Source: Phytoactinopolyspora halotolerans
Lineage (GTDB): Bacteria; Actinomycetota; Actinomycetes; Jiangellales; Jiangellaceae
DNA length: 64,000 nucleotides
Assembly: GCF_010550675.1 (NCBI RefSeq)
Contig: NZ_JAAGOA010000009.1
Span: 62,001-126,000 of the forward strand
Reading direction: 5' to 3'
How positions within the stretch are numbered: the stretch's first letter is position 1; each line of letters begins with the position of its first letter. Below the pieces are notes generated by a model. It made no database searches. It was not told the DNA's origin and was given only the letters and a program-made list of their open reading frames with translations. Below, one piece after another: positions 17,183 to 33,385 of this stretch. The translations under genes and the position numbers were made by a program.

Positions 17183-17276
17183 CCTAAATGATCATGTGAA
17201 GTAGGTTTCCTCGTGCCGCAACAGGGCTGCAGACATGGTAGGGCACGAGAAAACCTACTTCACATGATCATTTAGG
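17183..17276. repeat. Long intergenic palindrome, 35-bp arms (ATGATCAT family)
   Basis: The arms 17183-17217 and 17242-17276 match in 34 of 35 positions around a 24-nt loop. Each arm carries the self-complementary ATGATCAT. The element lies between the end of the prepilin peptidase gene and the SoxR-like promoter of the ABC exporter. It may end the long alaS-to-peptidase transcript. Its core resembles the palindromes at 28167, 38915 and 55825. Confidence 0.85.
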
Positions 17277-17328: not shown

Positions 17329-17359
17329 TTGACCTCAACAATAGTTCAGGTCTTAGCGT
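17329..17359 (+). promoter_or_regulatory. SoxR/MerR-type promoter of the ABC exporter
   Basis: The -35 TTGACC (17329-17334) and -10 TAGCGT (17354-17359) are separated by 19 bp, the long spacer typical of MerR-family activated promoters. The spacer holds the dyad ACCTCAACAATAGTTCAGGT, one mismatch from perfect and close to the SoxR box (CCTCAA followed by TTGAGG). It lies about 75 bp before the exporter ATG. The same design recurs at 31237. Confidence 0.75.
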
Positions 17360-17431: not shown

Positions 17432-19372
17432 ATGAGCATGGAAGTGACGGCGTGGGAATCGCTGTACCACGCGATGCACGCCCAGGAGGACCGTCGGCCG
17501 TTCTCGAAGACCACGCTGAAGCGGATCGCCCGCTTCGCCCAGCCGCATCGCCGCCAGCTGGCCTGGTTCCTGGTGCTCAGCGCGGTGGGTGCGGGTCTGG
17601 CCGTGGCCACGCCGTTGCTCGCCGGCCGGGTGGTCGACCAGATCAGCGGCGACGGCTCGACCGACGTGGTGGCCGTGCTGGCGTTGATCATCGCGGCGAT
17701 CGCGATCGCTGAGGCCGGGTTCGGCATCGTCGAACGCTGGCTGTCCGCCCGCATCGGTGAGGGACTGATCCTGGACCTGCGCACGGCGGTCTTCGACCAC
17801 GTACAGAAGATGCCGGTGGCGTTCTTCACCCGCACCCGGACCGGCGCGCTGGTGAGCCGGCTGAACAACGACGTGATCGGGGCGCAGCGCGCATTCTCAG
17901 ACGTGCTCTCCAGGGTGGTCAGCAACCTCGTCATGCTGGTGCTCACGCTGATCGTCATGCTCAGCATCTCCTGGCAGATCACGGTCATCACCCTCGCCTT
18001 GCTGCCGGTGTTCGTCGTGCCGGCTCAGCGCATGGGACGGCGGCTGGCGCGGCTCGAGCGAGAGGCCGCGAATCACAACGCCACCATGAGCACCCAGATG
18101 ACCGAGCGTTTCTCCGCGCCCGGTGCGACGCTGGTGAAGCTGTTCGCCCGACCGGACCATGAGCTCTCCGAATTCGCCGTACGGGCCGGCCGGGTCCGCG
18201 ACATCGGGGTCAAGACAGCGATGGTGCAGTGGGTCTTCATCACCGCGCTCACGCTGGTCGGCGCGCTGGCGCTCGCACTGGTCTACGGGCTGGGCGGCTT
18301 CTACGCTCTCCGTGGTGACCTGGACGCCGGCGCCGTGGTCTCGCTGGCGCTGTTGCTCACCCGGTTGTACGCGCCGCTGACCGCCCTGGCCAGCGCCCGG
18401 GTGGAGGTCATGAGCGCGCTGGTGAGCTTCTCCCGCGTGTTCGAGGTGCTGGATCTCAAGCCGCTGATCACCGAGTCCGAACAGGCCCGCCCGGTGCCGG
18501 ACGGTCCCGCGTCGGTGGAGTTCGACGACGTGCACTTCGCGTATCCGACGGCGGAGAAGGTCTCACTCGCGTCGCTGGAAGAGGTCGCGCAACTGGACCT
18601 GCGCGGCGGCGAGGAGATCTTGCACGGTGTGTCGTTCCGGGCGGAACCGGGCGATGTGGTGGCCCTGGTCGGGTCGTCCGGAGCTGGGAAGTCGACCATC
18701 GCCCAGCTCATCCCTCGGCTGTACGACGTCGACAGTGGTGCCGTGCGGGTGGCCGGCGTGGACGTGCGTGACCTGAAGGCCGATTCGCTCCGCAAGACGG
18801 TCGGCATGGTGACCCAGGACGGGCACCTGTTCCACGACACGGTGCGGGCCAATCTGCTGCTGGCGCGGCCGGAATCGACCGAGGACGAGATGTGGGAGGC
18901 GATGCGCCGGGCGCGCATCGATGAGCTCGTCGCCTCCCTGCCGGCCGGCCTGGACACCATCGTCGGGGAGCGGGGGTACCGGCTGTCCGGCGGTGAGCGG
19001 CAACGGCTGACGATCGCGCGGCTGCTGCTGGCGCAGCCGCGGGTGGTGATTCTGGACGAGGCCACTGCGCATCTGGACTCGACCTCGGAGGCGGCCGTGC
19101 AGGCGGCGCTGACCGAGGCGCTCATCGGCCGGACCGCCGTCGTCATCGCCCACCGGCTGTCCACGGTCCGATCGGCGGATCAGATCCTCGTCGTCGACCA
19201 GGGTCGCGTCATCGAGCGCGGCACACACGCCGAGCTGCTGGCGCTCGGCGGCCGTTACGACGAGCTGTACCGGACCCAGTTCGAGCACCAGGCGGAGACA
19301 CCCGCGGCGGACGCGGAGACGGTAGCGCCCGGCGCAGCGACCGGCCCGGCAACCGCCGCCCAGCCCGCCTGA
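17432..19372 (+). CDS. ABC exporter (fused membrane and ATPase domains, MsbA/LmrA-like)
   Basis: 646-aa half-transporter that would work as a dimer to export a hydrophobic compound. The membrane domain covers about residues 35-330, with six spans. The ATPase has Walker A GSSGAGKST near 413-421, signature LSGGERQR near 515 and Walker B VVILDEAT near 540. Between the strand VEFDDVHFAYP and the next conserved EEILHGVSF is a longer insert than usual (about 20 residues). The C-terminus is an Ala-rich tail without motifs. GGAGGAA lies 8 nt before the ATG. The SoxR-like promoter upstream suggests induction by redox-active molecules; a SoxR-regulated ABC transporter is known in Streptomyces. Confidence 0.92.
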   Translation: MSMEVTAWESLYHAMHAQEDRRPFSKTTLKRIARFAQPHRRQLAWFLVLSAVGAGLAVATPLLAGRVVDQISGDGSTDVVAVLALIIAAIAIAEAGFGIVERWLSARIGEGLILDLRTAVFDHVQKMPVAFFTRTRTGALVSRLNNDVIGAQRAFSDVLSRVVSNLVMLVLTLIVMLSISWQITVITLALLPVFVVPAQRMGRRLARLEREAANHNATMSTQMTERFSAPGATLVKLFARPDHELSEFAVRAGRVRDIGVKTAMVQWVFITALTLVGALALALVYGLGGFYALRGDLDAGAVVSLALLLTRLYAPLTALASARVEVMSALVSFSRVFEVLDLKPLITESEQARPVPDGPASVEFDDVHFAYPTAEKVSLASLEEVAQLDLRGGEEILHGVSFRAEPGDVVALVGSSGAGKSTIAQLIPRLYDVDSGAVRVAGVDVRDLKADSLRKTVGMVTQDGHLFHDTVRANLLLARPESTEDEMWEAMRRARIDELVASLPAGLDTIVGERGYRLSGGERQRLTIARLLLAQPRVVILDEATAHLDSTSEAAVQAALTEALIGRTAVVIAHRLSTVRSADQILVVDQGRVIERGTHAELLALGGRYDELYRTQFEHQAETPAADAETVAPGAATGPATAAQPA

Positions 19373-29347: not shown

Positions 29348-30087
29348 CGCGTCCTCCTGTGCTGGGCGTGATCGTTGCCACGGTACTCTGCGCTGTCGCC
29401 GGTGAGCTCGAAGAACGCCTCTTCGAGCGAGCGGCCCTCGCGGGTGAGCTCGGCCACGCTGCTGTCGGCGAGCAACGCTCCGCGGCCGATGACGATCAGG
29501 CGGTCGGCCGTCAGCGCCATCTCACTGATCAGGTGACTGGAGAGCAGGACGGTGCGTCCTTCGGCGGCCAGCGACGTGACCAGGCCCCGGAGCCACCGCA
29601 CGCCCTCCGGGTCCAAGCCGTTCACCGGTTCGTCGAACAGGAGCACCGGCGGGTCACCGAGCAATGCGGCGGCGATGCCGAGCCGCTGTGACATGCCCAG
29701 GGAGAAGCCGCCCGCCCGCCGTGCGGCGACGTCGGAGAGCCCGACCGTGTCCAGCACGGCCCGGACCCGGGCGCGCGGGATGCCGTTGCCGGCGGCCAGC
29801 GCGGCGAGGTGGTTCTCGGCGCTGCGGCCGGGGTGAAACGTCCTCGCCTCGAGCAGCGCCCCGACCTCCCGCAACGGCCAGGCCAGCCGATGGTACGGCG
29901 TGCCGTTGATGTGAGCGGTCCCCGCGTCCGGGCGATCCAGTCCGATGATCATTCGCATGGTGGTGGACTTGCCCGAACCGTTGGGGCCGAGGAACCCGGT
30001 GACGACACCGGGACGGACGTCGAAGTCGAGACCTCCGACGGCGACGGTGGAACCGTAGCGTTTGGTGAGCCCGCGGACTTCGATCAC
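29344..30087 (-). CDS. ABC exporter ATP-binding protein (DrrA/BcrA-like)
   Basis: 247-aa ATPase. Walker A GPNGSGKST is at residues 34-42, signature FSLGMSQRLGIA, Walker B VLLFDEPVNGLDPEG and switch SSHLISE. The changed signature (SLGMSQR for SGGQ) is usual in the BcrA/DrrA group that powers ABC-2 permeases. It is the first gene of the minus-strand unit ATPase-permease-kinase-regulator, of which the last two are now a remnant. It faces the rhodanese gene at 30277 across a 189-bp divergent region that shows no other recognisable signal. Confidence 0.92.
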   Translation of the reverse strand: MIEVRGLTKRYGSTVAVGGLDFDVRPGVVTGFLGPNGSGKSTTMRMIIGLDRPDAGTAHINGTPYHRLAWPLREVGALLEARTFHPGRSAENHLAALAAGNGIPRARVRAVLDTVGLSDVAARRAGGFSLGMSQRLGIAAALLGDPPVLLFDEPVNGLDPEGVRWLRGLVTSLAAEGRTVLLSSHLISEMALTADRLIVIGRGALLADSSVAELTREGRSLEEAFFELTGDSAEYRGNDHAQHRRTR

Positions 30088-30276
30088 GGTTGTGTCCAGG
30101 TGAGTGTTCTCATGCCACCCACGCTACGAACGCGCGAGTGCGGCCAGAAGCCGGCTTTCCTCCGTCTCGCCTGGGGGTTCTCCCCCAGACGGGCGGGAGC
30201 GACGTGGCAGCATACCGCCCTCGGATGGCAGCCGGACCCATGCCGGACGCGGGCACGGCGCGGCTACGGTACGACT

Positions 30277-30723
30277 ATGACGGTGAACACCGATGGCCTC
30301 GCTTCGTCGGGCCGCCCCAGGGTCAGTGGTTCGGCGGTGTCGGCCACGCCGGCCGCGGCGAGCGAAGCCGCGGCGGCGCATTTCGCCTCGCTACTGGCGT
30401 TCGAGACGGACTGCTGGGATGTCCGCGACGCCATGAGCCGGGATGCGATGGACTTCGTGCTACTCGATGTCCGCAGCCCCGAACTGTTCGCGGCCGGGCA
30501 TGTACCGGGCGCCGACAATCTTCCGCATGGCCGGATCAACGAGCGCAACCTGGCGACGTACCCGGCGGACACGCTGTTCGTCGTCTATTGCGCCGGTCCG
30601 CACTGTAACGGCGCCGACAAGGCCGCGCTGCGGTTGGCCCGGCTCGGCCGGCCGGTGAAGAAGATGATCGGCGGCATCACCGGGTGGCTCGACGAGGGCT
30701 TCGAATTGACGACGACGTCGTGA
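30277..30723 (+). CDS. Rhodanese-like protein with N-terminal extension
   Basis: 148-aa protein. An Ala/Ser-rich N-terminus of about 45 residues precedes a rhodanese domain: FVLLDVRSPELFAAGHVPGADNLPHGRI, an active-site loop VVYCAGPHCNGADKAA with Cys near residue 107, then IGGITGWLDEGF. The loop with CAGPHCNGA is that of the persulfide-type single-domain rhodaneses often linked to stress regulators. The role is presumably cytoplasmic sulfur transfer. The gene is followed by an 8-bp-stem hairpin terminator. Confidence 0.87.
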   Translation: MTVNTDGLASSGRPRVSGSAVSATPAAASEAAAAHFASLLAFETDCWDVRDAMSRDAMDFVLLDVRSPELFAAGHVPGADNLPHGRINERNLATYPADTLFVVYCAGPHCNGADKAALRLARLGRPVKKMIGGITGWLDEGFELTTTS

Positions 30724-30729
30724 CGGGAC

Positions 30730-30750
30730 GGGACGGGTCAGCCCCGTCCC
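30730..30750. terminator. Hairpin between convergent genes
   Basis: GGGACGGG (30730-30737) and CCCGTCCC (30743-30750) form an 8-bp GC stem with the loop TCAGC. It starts 7 bp after the rhodanese stop and lies 7 bp before the stop of the opposing small gene, so it can serve both strands. Confidence 0.65.
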
Positions 30751-30756
30751 CCGCGG

Positions 30757-30963
30757 TCATTCACCCCAGTCGTCAAGTGTCCATGCCGGCTCGACCATCT
30801 CGGTGCCGCCGGGACCGATCTGGACGATCTGGTTCCCGTGCCGCTCGATCGGACGTACCAGCCAGCTGTGATTCTGTGCGTTCCAGGTCAACACGTACTC
30901 CGTGTCCCGGCGCAACATCAGTGTTCCTCCCGAATCCCCGTCGCGGACGGTGGCGACGGTCAC
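30757..30963 (-). CDS. Small hypothetical protein
   Basis: 68 aa if started at the GTG at 30963 (VTVATVRDGDSGG); the frame stays open further upstream to 31185. The peptide is a mixed beta-type sequence with WNAQNHSWLVRPI and ends EPAWTLDDWGE. I do not recognise a family. Codon bias with GC-rich third positions supports coding up to about the chosen start. No clear Shine-Dalgarno sequence is seen, so both the start and the reality of the gene are uncertain. The position between a terminator hairpin and a long upstream gap fits a single small gene. Confidence 0.45.
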   Translation of the reverse strand: MTVATVRDGDSGGTLMLRRDTEYVLTWNAQNHSWLVRPIERHGNQIVQIGPGGTEMVEPAWTLDDWGE

Positions 30964-31236
30964 TGAACTGTGCCTGTGCTCGCCCCACACCGACGTCCGG
31001 ACCGTGCGGTGTGAACCTGCACTCTGGTAGCGTGCCAGGTCGGCGGGGCATTGTTGACCGGCTCTATGAAGATATGTCCGTTCAGTGGTGCGTGATACGA
31101 CCGAACGGATGAGGGCGGCGCCGTCCTTGAGCACGTAGCCTCGATCTTTTCGCCGCCACGGACGTACAGGTGTTCGACGCTGCACGTCGCAATCGTCTCG
31201 AATCGTCGGGCCTGAAAGATGACCCGAAATCGTCCC
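30964..31236. other. Intergenic stretch without a supported gene
   Basis: This region lies between a doubtful small gene and the SoxR-like promoter. It holds a stem-loop with CACACCG (30986-30992) and CGGTGTG (31007-31013) around the inner palindrome GTCCGGAC. Open frames through it have poor codon bias for this genome and no ribosome sites. If the small gene at 30757 starts far upstream, its 5' part would lie here. Confidence 0.5.
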
Positions 31237-31267
31237 TTGACCTCAACATTTGTTGAGGTCTTAGCCT
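31237..31267 (+). promoter_or_regulatory. SoxR/MerR-type promoter of the hemerythrin-like gene
   Basis: TTGACC (31237-31242) and TAGCCT (31262-31267) are 19 bp apart. The dyad ACCTCAACATTTGTTGAGGT is a perfect 8-bp inverted repeat centred in the spacer. It is the better-preserved twin of the promoter at 17329. SoxR-type regulators bind such 18-bp boxes and untwist the long spacer when oxidised. Confidence 0.8.
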
Positions 31268-31309
31268 GGATGCACAGTTGTGACCAGCGCGGACGGTAAA
31301 GGTGATGAC

Positions 31310-31858
31310 ATGTCGGAAAGCTACGCCCAGCGGCCGGATGCCGATGTCGAGCGGGCTCAGGCCTTCGGTGAACAACTGGTCGAGGTTCACGGGTGGCTGC
31401 GAGCCGAGTTGTCCTCCATTCGTCGCGAGGTAGACGAGTTCGTCGCCGGCCGGGCGGATGCCCCGGCAGCCACACGCACGCCCCCTTCCCTCACCGTCCA
31501 GCTGCGCACACGCTGCCTGGAGTTCTGTGCGGACCTGCACCATCACCATACGGGTGAAGACGGCATCCTCTTCCCCGCCCTAGCGGAGGACGTTCCCGAA
31601 CTGGTGCCGGTACTCCCCAAGCTTCAGCAGCAGCACATGGCCGTCGGCCGCATCCTCGACGCGCTGCAGGCGACGCTCCAGGATGCCGCCGACACCGACC
31701 CGGCGTGGGTCCGTGCGGAACTGGCGAGGCTCTCCGCCGAACTCGAGGCACACCTGTCTGATGAGGAGGCGCAGATCGTCGACGCCATGAACGCGATGCG
31801 ACAGGAGCGCGTCGACGCGTTGACGGCGGCCGCCGAGGCACAAGCCGCGCAGGAGTGA
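31310..31858 (+). CDS. Hemerythrin HHE-domain protein
   Basis: 182-aa four-helix protein with a hemerythrin-like metal site. Candidate ligands are His27 (EVHGWL), the cluster HHHHTGED (His77-80, Glu83), His109 (QQQHMAV), and His148 and Glu152 (AHLSDEEAQ). Such proteins bind a di-iron centre and handle oxygen, peroxide or nitric oxide. I chose the ATG at 31310 (AGGTGAT just before it) over a GTG at 31280. Transcription from the SoxR-like promoter 43 bp upstream would link it to redox stress, which fits the protein type. Confidence 0.87.
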   Translation: MSESYAQRPDADVERAQAFGEQLVEVHGWLRAELSSIRREVDEFVAGRADAPAATRTPPSLTVQLRTRCLEFCADLHHHHTGEDGILFPALAEDVPELVPVLPKLQQQHMAVGRILDALQATLQDAADTDPAWVRAELARLSAELEAHLSDEEAQIVDAMNAMRQERVDALTAAAEAQAAQE

Positions 31859-31895
31859 CGAGTCCTGGCACGTGAGCCGACGGATCGGCTACATG

Positions 31896-32126
31896 TCAGG
31901 ACTTGTCCCGGTACTTCGGCACGTCCGGTGCCTCATCGAGGTCATCGAGGTCGCGGCCGGGCGCGTCCGAGCTGATACCCATGCCGCTGACCGGCCGCTG
32001 TCCGTGCACGAGACCGTCCTGAGCCTCCTGCTCCTTGAGCGCTCGCTCAGTGGTTCGCTCACGGTCGATCTCGCGCGGATCCTCACCGGGCGTCGGTGTT
32101 TCCTTGGTTCGCCGGTCCTCAGCCAT
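31896..32126 (-). CDS. Small hydrophilic hypothetical protein
   Basis: 76-aa very charged protein (start MAEDRRTKETPTPGEDPREI, end APDVPKYRDKS) with no hydrophobic segment, probably disordered. The frame is open further upstream to 32282, but that part runs into the promoter of the regulator at 32270 and has less typical codons, so I take the ATG at 32126. No family is recognised. It converges on the hemerythrin gene with 37 bp between. Confidence 0.5.
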   Translation of the reverse strand: MAEDRRTKETPTPGEDPREIDRERTTERALKEQEAQDGLVHGQRPVSGMGISSDAPGRDLDDLDEAPDVPKYRDKS

Positions 32127-32269
32127 GTGCTGCCCGGTACCCGGATCACGCCGACGACACACGTCCGGCGTGATGCGGACAACAGCAACGGGCACGCGGG
32201 AAATCTGATTCACCGGGCACGCCGGACGTCGTAGGATCAGGTACGTCGTCTGCGACGAAGGAGTATCAG

Positions 32270-33385
32270 GTGCTGGCCGCACATCGCCGCGAGCTCATTC
32301 TCGACACGGTCCGCAGCCGGGGCACGGTGCGCCTGCGCGATCTGACCGACGAGCTCGACGTCTCGATCGCCACCGTGCGCCGCGACGTCACCGAACTCGC
32401 CGAACGAGGGCTGCTGGCCAGGGTGCACGGAGCCATCAAACCCGCTCACGGGCAGAACGGCGACGGGGGTGCCGGAACCGTCGCCGCGAGTCAGTCCAGC
32501 GCCGCATCTCCCGGCTCCGGACTGACCATCGGCATGCTGGTGCCGTCGACGACGTACTACTACCCCGAGGTGATCCGCGGCGCACGCGCGGCGGCGGAGG
32601 ACCTGGGTGCGCGGCTGGTGCTGGGCATGTCGTACTACAACCCCGAGGTCGAGCCGCAGCGCGTGCAGGAGCTGCTGGCCGGAGATATCGACGGCCTGCT
32701 CGTCACGATCAGCACGCAGATCGTCGGCGACGCCCGCTCCCGCCTGGACTGGCTCGCCGCGTTGGACGTGCCCATCGTGCTCGTCGAGCGCCCGGCCGGG
32801 CTCGGTACGGGGTTCGAGCACCTGGACTCGGTGTACTCGGACCACGTCTACGGCGCCTGCCTGGGCGTCAGGCACCTGGCCTCGCTGGGACACGGCTCGG
32901 TCGGCCTGGTCACCCGGCGCGACAGCCCGAACCGGGCGCTCATCGAGGCGGGGCACGGTGCGGGCCTGCGGGAGATCGGCGTGGAGCCGGGGCCACCGGT
33001 CACCACCCCGCATCCCGAGGTGGATGTCGCCGCCTTCGACGACGCCATCCGGGTGGTCACCGAGGATGTCGCCGGTGGGCGGATCAGTGCCTTACTCGTC
33101 CACAATGACCAGGATGCGATCGTGTTGATGCAGCGGCTGCACGCCCGGGGTATCCGCGTCCCGGACGACGTCGCGCTGGTCGCCTACGACGACGAGTCGG
33201 CCGCACTGGTCGACACTCCCCTGACGGCGATCGCGCCCGCGAAACGGGACGTCGGGAGGACAGCCGTGGAGCTGCTGATCGCTCGAATCGCTCATCCCGA
33301 TGAGCGACCACGTCGGCATGTCGCGCTACTCCCCGAGTTGAAGGTTCGGGAGTCGTGCGGTGCCACAACCGTCGGCACCCGCTGA
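32270..33385 (+). CDS. Chimeric regulator: DeoR-type HTH with LacI-type sugar-binding domain
   Basis: 371-aa protein. Residues 1-57 are a DeoR winged helix (MLAAHRRELILDTVRSRGTV, RLRDLTDELDVSIATVRRDV). After a Gly/Ser/Ala linker, residues 85-365 are a LacI/ribose-binding fold (GLTIGMLVPSTTYYYPEVIR, VALVAYDDESAALVDTPLTAI). Classical DeoR proteins carry a sugar-phosphate isomerase-like domain and LacI proteins a different HTH, so this is the mixed type found in some actinobacteria. AAGGAG lies 7 nt before the GTG. It precedes the dehydrogenase-importer operon and probably controls it; the palindrome GCGTTAACGC at 33544 is a candidate site. Confidence 0.9.
   Translation: MLAAHRRELILDTVRSRGTVRLRDLTDELDVSIATVRRDVTELAERGLLARVHGAIKPAHGQNGDGGAGTVAASQSSAASPGSGLTIGMLVPSTTYYYPEVIRGARAAAEDLGARLVLGMSYYNPEVEPQRVQELLAGDIDGLLVTISTQIVGDARSRLDWLAALDVPIVLVERPAGLGTGFEHLDSVYSDHVYGACLGVRHLASLGHGSVGLVTRRDSPNRALIEAGHGAGLREIGVEPGPPVTTPHPEVDVAAFDDAIRVVTEDVAGGRISALLVHNDQDAIVLMQRLHARGIRVPDDVALVAYDDESAALVDTPLTAIAPAKRDVGRTAVELLIARIAHPDERPRRHVALLPELKVRESCGATTVGTR

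Follow-up and report, generated by a model that had tools for sequence, protein, structure and literature searches.

The window analysed here is a 64,000-nt stretch of Phytoactinopolyspora halotolerans DNA (GCF_010550675.1, contig NZ_JAAGOA010000009.1, positions 62,001 to 126,000 of the forward strand), and whole-genome scans covered the 7.3-Mb genome of the same organism (labelled G000). Within the window, a gene for a hemerythrin HHE-domain protein lies behind a promoter with an over-long spacer that carries an inverted repeat, and a gene for an ABC exporter follows a closely similar promoter (Table 1). The nearest ORF downstream of the hemerythrin gene is small, 87% identical in P. endophytica (G018) and located on the opposite strand, so that the hemerythrin gene appears to be transcribed on its own.

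Table 1. Features of the hemerythrin locus and of the second SoxR-type site in the window.
Feature	Position	Strand	Basis and remarks
Further SoxR-type promoter (TTGACC-N19-TAGCGT) with one dyad base changed	17329-17359	+	Pattern scans, reading
ABC exporter with its membrane domain and its ATPase domain on a single chain	17432-19372	+	Pfam, homology; regulon partner
-35 element TTGACC	31237-31242	+	Direct sequence reading
SoxR-type dyad (soxbox) GACCTCAAC-ATTT-GTTGAGGTC	31239-31260		Reading, pattern scans, P. endophytica conservation
-10 element TAGCCT	31262-31267	+	19 bp past -35; sequence reading
RBS-like AAAGGT	31298-31303	+	Inferred by eye
182-aa protein with a hemerythrin HHE domain; gene apparently monocistronic	31310-31858	+	ORF list, Pfam PF01814

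Direct reading of the hemerythrin promoter bore out the predicted succession of TTGACC, a 19-bp spacer and TAGCCT across 31237-31267 with a perfect dyad, where the word perfect applies to the arms. The spacer is TCAACATTTGTTGAGGTCT (19 bp, 31243-31261), and the 9-bp arms GACCTCAAC (31239-31247) and GTTGAGGTC (31252-31260) match each other without exception around a central ATTT that is not self-complementary; the promoter ends 43 bp upstream of the ATG at 31310. SoxR promoters place 19-20 bp between the -35 and -10 elements with a dyad in between, and the hemerythrin promoter has this arrangement, with 19 bp between its elements, the dyad lying in that interval and the soxbox pattern ACCTCAA-N6-TTGAGGT contained within it. 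A sigma-70 consensus scan of 30700-32200, which was limited to 16-18-nt spacers, returned no promoter-like site, and an Rfam scan of 30000-33000 gave no match. The pattern ACCTCAACN4GTTGAGGT occurs twice in the window at up to three mismatches, against 0.12 matches expected, and at the same tolerance the longer TGACCTCAACN4GTTGAGGTC yields seven forward matches in the 7.3-Mb genome compared with none for the reversed control. The dyad before the hemerythrin gene very probably serves as an operator for SoxR.

The second of the two window sites stands before the ABC exporter gene and consists of TTGACC (17329-17334), a 19-bp spacer and TAGCGT (17354-17359). A matching promoter about 14 kb from the first had been foreseen and is indeed present, with one base of the dyad changed, and the accompanying proposal of a joint regulon of the hemerythrin gene and the exporter draws support from SoxR-type sites in front of both. 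Just upstream of the exporter promoter lies a separate feature, a 94-bp near-perfect palindrome (17183-17276) with 47-nt arms that are 87% complementary. Its core has about 85 copies per strand in P. halotolerans, 6 in P. endophytica and 1 in G017, and none in the remaining 19 genomes searched; it resembles a small mobile or REP-like element that has expanded.

Beyond the window, the P. halotolerans genome contains both the candidate regulator and a wider set of candidate targets. Among 32 matches to MerR-type domains, two exceed the curated SoxR cut-off, with 220.9 and 184.2 bits against a family threshold of 116.9, and both proteins carry the CX2CXCX5C motif. SoxR1 (C1:219005) aligns with the SoxR structure 2zhg over nearly its full length (6e-52) with all four cysteines aligned, and a dyad with the same perfect arms lies directly upstream of soxR1. 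The SoxR2 gene (L038, G000:C16:69101-69520) lies in a locus where no dyad could be recognised with as many as 4 mismatches allowed, and it is next to an overlapping ORF of opposite orientation that, by eye, resembles an NAD(P)-binding reductase. Seven ACCTCAA-N6-TTGAGGT dyads with at most one mismatch are present in the genome, and the genes behind them encode SoxR1, a PPOX-like flavin/F420 protein, the hemerythrin, an MFS exporter, two quinone oxidoreductase-like proteins and the ABC exporter. One of these box-linked quinone oxidoreductase genes (L001, G000:C10, 5304-6268) is split into two overlapping frames, by a frameshift or an assembly error. Five further dyads carry two mismatches, a level at which the reversed control also gives 3 matches per strand; genes were assigned to two of them, one preceding a transketolase gene pair and the other, with good -35 and -10 elements, a gene for a 106-aa protein, while the remaining three are at C5:10452, C18:107431 and C34:82872. 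The transketolase pair behind its two-mismatch box (L005, G000:C12:62650) represents a split gene, and boxes in the congeners G019 (L209) and G020 (L211) also adjoin a transketolase gene. Overall, about seven further SoxR-type sites stand before typical SoxR targets, namely ABC and MFS exporters, quinone oxidoreductases and transketolase.

We then considered the box and its presumed regulator across 393 genomes of the class, with the box defined as exact TTGACCTCAA-N6-TTGAGGT and SoxR as a TIGR01950 match at E <=1e-25. The box is present in 125 of these genomes, with no occurrence of the reversed control pattern among the matches listed, and SoxR is present in 224. Co-occurrence is pronounced, as SoxR is found in 124 of the 125 box genomes (the single exception being G057) and in 100 of the 268 box-free genomes (Fisher p 5.5e-38, relatedness uncorrected). 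The association holds among genomes of at least 5 Mb (98/99 with the box versus 58/65 without, p 0.0068) and among those below 5 Mb (26/26 versus 42/203, p 3e-16). At the 109 box loci among the matches listed, homologues of the P. halotolerans targets include MFS exporters (19), soxR (16), ABC exporters (11), quinone oxidoreductases (8-9) and transketolase (2), with none for the hemerythrin, the PPOX-like protein or the 106-aa protein; a hemerythrin frame of any kind was likewise not found at these 109 loci. The downstream gene was assigned by a fixed rule, which took, on the strand that reads TTGACC, the longest of the ORFs with a start no more than 350 bp away; L133 and L177 had no such ORF and L132 was left out, so that 106 of 107 ORFs were scanned. 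Pfam assigned these 106 ORFs to MFS (25), ABC membrane (11), zinc dehydrogenase (8), DUF4440/SnoaL-like (8), luciferase-like (7), PPOX (5), flavin reductase (3) and transketolase (2) families, among others.

It is conceivable that a MerR-family regulator other than SoxR reads the hemerythrin dyad in response to another signal, as about 30 of the 32 MerR-type domains matched in P. halotolerans lie outside SoxR and many boxes in Jiangella-like relatives are paired with a -10 element unlike TAGCNT, which suggests that the users of the box may be mixed. We nevertheless regard this as improbable, given the near-universal presence of SoxR in box genomes (124/125), the perfect dyad before soxR1 together with soxR homologues beside 16 of 109 boxes, and the close match between the recognition region of SoxR1 and that of SoxR in 2zhg. 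SoxR is favoured as the regulator because of its co-occurrence with the box, the soxR1 dyad and box neighbours that are typical of SoxR targets.

The sole close orthologue of the hemerythrin is that of P. endophytica, with 57% identity; no close orthologue was found in G017, G019 or G020 (three of five congeners). Besides P. endophytica, two congeners have the flanking rhodanese gene without an adjoining hemerythrin gene. The P. endophytica promoter (TTGACATCAACATTTGTTGAGGTTTTAGCGT), with a 19-bp spacer and the -10 element TAGCGT, agrees with the P. halotolerans promoter at 28 of 31 bases. Its surroundings have diverged, with 42% identity over the 123 bases upstream and 33% over the 42 bases downstream, and in a blastn comparison the promoter stands out as a lone 30-base match. 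Proteins encoded nearby share 75-94% identity between the two species, and among the seven proteins compared the hemerythrin shows the lowest conservation. The site is judged to be conserved because 28 of the 31 promoter bases are kept in otherwise diverged intergenic DNA.

Within that intergenic region, the dyad might instead serve the divergent 53-aa ORF (30760-30918, minus strand; 94% identical in P. endophytica, no NCBIfam match), with the hemerythrin gene adjacent by chance. Despite the strong conservation of this ORF, we reject such an arrangement as very unlikely, since the -35/-10 pair is oriented toward the hemerythrin gene and the 53-aa gene has a conserved block of its own, 123 poorly conserved bases away from the dyad. 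This block (31018-31113), upstream of the 53-aa ORF, is 81% identical in P. endophytica, contains an inverted repeat (31077-31089 / 31097-31109) and is possibly another operator or RNA element.

More distant homologues present a different picture. The dyad was sought at 134 homologue loci, assembled from sets of 26, 60, 28 and 20 between which genomes may recur, and it was found only at the window gene and at the P. endophytica gene, which accounts for two of the loci, leaving 0 of 131 others. The 26- and 20-locus sets were scanned at up to 5 mismatches, with a few 5-mismatch matches far from the gene in the former; the 28-locus set at up to 4, with one unrelated 3-mismatch match far downstream in L262; and the 60-locus set with a limit of 4 mismatches inside 700 bp and of 3 for the locus as a whole, with an unrelated downstream match in L087. 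Absence of the dyad at these loci would fit a non-functional site in P. halotolerans that arose by chance or has decayed, an explanation we reject as exceedingly improbable in view of the two window matches against 0.12 expected and the 28 of 31 promoter bases retained amid diverged DNA. Retention of the dyad in front of orthologues, originally suggested as a check, is seen for the only close orthologue and is not general (0/131 other homologue loci), and among close orthologues, which comprise two species only, no conserved gene was seen to have lost its dyad. With 0 of 131 homologue loci carrying the dyad and 0 of 109 boxes adjoining a hemerythrin gene, conservation rests on two congeneric species, and the predicted link between SoxR and hemerythrin looks real but confined to these two.

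The protein itself belongs to the hemerythrin HHE-domain family, its PF01814 match scoring 67.5 bits where the curated threshold is 25.3. The ligands of a hemerythrin HHE domain follow the pattern H, HxxxE, H, HxxxE, and the 182-aa protein supplies H27, H79-x3-E83, H109 and H148-x3-E152; all except H27 are invariant in 25 alignment rows, several of which end before H27. The AlphaFold model is a helical bundle of five helices (mean pLDDT 87.2) whose best fold match is 2p0n (Z 16.0, rmsd 2.7, 154 aligned), while 6q09 gives Z 13.2, rmsd 2.9 and 140 aligned residues at 21% identity; only such top matches count, since unrelated helical bundles reach Z of about 12.5. A sequence search of solved structures produced no convincing match, the best hemerythrin-like hit being 2p0n at E 0.24. 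Membership in the RIC/YtfE repair family (TIGR03652) was considered and rejected, the match being weak and partial with 29.9 bits against a cut-off of 204.7.

Related domains offer a clue to function. Counting plus-strand frames only, an HHE domain is fused C-terminal to an F420H2-dependent quinone reductase in 30 of the 96 hemerythrin frames at 114 loci (11 of the 30 had themselves served to train the small HMM) and to a luciferase-like oxidoreductase in 4 of the 96, the query L120 included; Pfam confirmed one fusion of each type, L072 and L120, respectively. The luciferase-like proteins with a C-terminal hemerythrin domain (L051, L055, L064, L120) come from Phytoactinopolyspora and relatives. 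P. endophytica encodes a stand-alone protein of the F420H2-dependent quinone reductase family two genes upstream of its hemerythrin gene. As the HHE fusions tie the domain to the chemistry of the usual SoxR targets, an enzyme partner is preferred over a sensor, and we tentatively suggest that the hemerythrin could be a di-iron oxidoreductase or peroxidase-like partner in the detoxification of quinones and redox drugs.

The idea of di-iron redox sensing, with which the regulon had originally been associated, is not supported, as nothing found marks the protein as a sensor and the fusions in relatives point to a quinone/F420 redox enzyme or its partner. A hemerythrin that itself senses redox state or oxygen and feeds into regulation has a precedent in the actinobacterial hemerythrin-like MsmHr, which, according to the available excerpts on that protein, modulates a SigF-dependent peroxide response. 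Such a function is nonetheless unlikely here, as the P. halotolerans protein is a lone HHE domain without an output domain and the related domains in the fusions found are joined to oxidoreductases rather than to signalling domains.

SoxR is a bacterial sensor of redox-cycling antibiotics that twists DNA and activates transcription upon oxidation of its cluster. Our sequence analysis supports a model, to which we assign a probability of roughly 85%, in which a SoxR operator activates the hemerythrin gene together with exporters and quinone reductases under redox-cycling compounds. In this model, SoxR would occupy the operator between the -35 and -10 elements of a MerR-type promoter whose 19-bp spacer exceeds the usual length and, as long as the SoxR [2Fe-2S] cluster is reduced, would keep the promoter weak. 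Redox-cycling compounds would oxidise the cluster, and oxidised SoxR would twist the DNA such that the hemerythrin gene is transcribed, alongside the exporters and quinone reductases encoded elsewhere in the genome. The hemerythrin gene is thus probably a member of the SoxR response, an unusual target rather than a new kind of target, and apparently a lineage-restricted addition to a known regulator. A broader scenario, which we offer as speculation, is that a di-iron hemerythrin enzyme came under SoxR control in two species of Phytoactinopolyspora, having been drawn from the domain found in other actinobacteria as a fusion to F420H2-dependent quinone reductases, so that the SoxR response, beyond exporting and modifying redox-active compounds, might also handle the peroxide, oxygen or nitric oxide chemistry that these compounds cause. 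If SoxR control is borne out, a di-iron protein would join the non-enteric SoxR targets, and, given the fusion of related hemerythrin domains with F420H2-dependent quinone reductases, a testable role would be available for a large family of actinobacterial hemerythrin-like proteins.

The view that hemerythrins are not described SoxR targets agrees with the open-licence literature, in which, among the matches listed, we found no report of such a regulator-target link; nor did that literature yield a paper connecting hemerythrin to F420 and quinone reductase, or one on SoxR in Phytoactinopolyspora. A review of RIC proteins (PMC9268430) does not mention SoxR in its main text, and the excerpted text of PMC4295536 mentions SoxR among sensors missing from M. 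tuberculosis. As given in the available portions of PMC4146615, non-enteric SoxR regulons comprise transporters and small-molecule-modifying enzymes, with typical oxidative-stress detoxification proteins absent from the putative targets there.

The Streptosporangium fusion L072, a PF04075 quinone reductase with a C-terminal hemerythrin, shares the homologous domain and the same histidine/glutamate pattern, whereas the P. halotolerans protein stands alone behind a SoxR-type promoter and the dyad was not found at the loci of such fusions. The M. kansasii HLP, an Rv2633c homologue (6q09) described in the accessible text of PMC8913304 as a nitric oxide peroxidase, has a hemerythrin-like helical bundle in common with the P. 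halotolerans model, at 21% identity. As a regulatory system, the closest counterpart is the S. coelicolor SoxR regulon, which on the excerpted account in PMC4146615 likewise combines a CX2CXCX5C SoxR, soxbox promoters and targets encoding an ABC transporter, a quinone oxidoreductase and an oxidoreductase. The two differ in that no hemerythrin gene is among the S. coelicolor targets given in that excerpt, and in that P. halotolerans has two SoxR genes with a perfect soxbox at soxR1, while S. coelicolor soxR is reported there to be non-autoregulated. The box-linked transketolase of P. halotolerans, in turn, resembles the soxbox-bearing transketolase SAV_1623 of S. avermitilis described in the same source.
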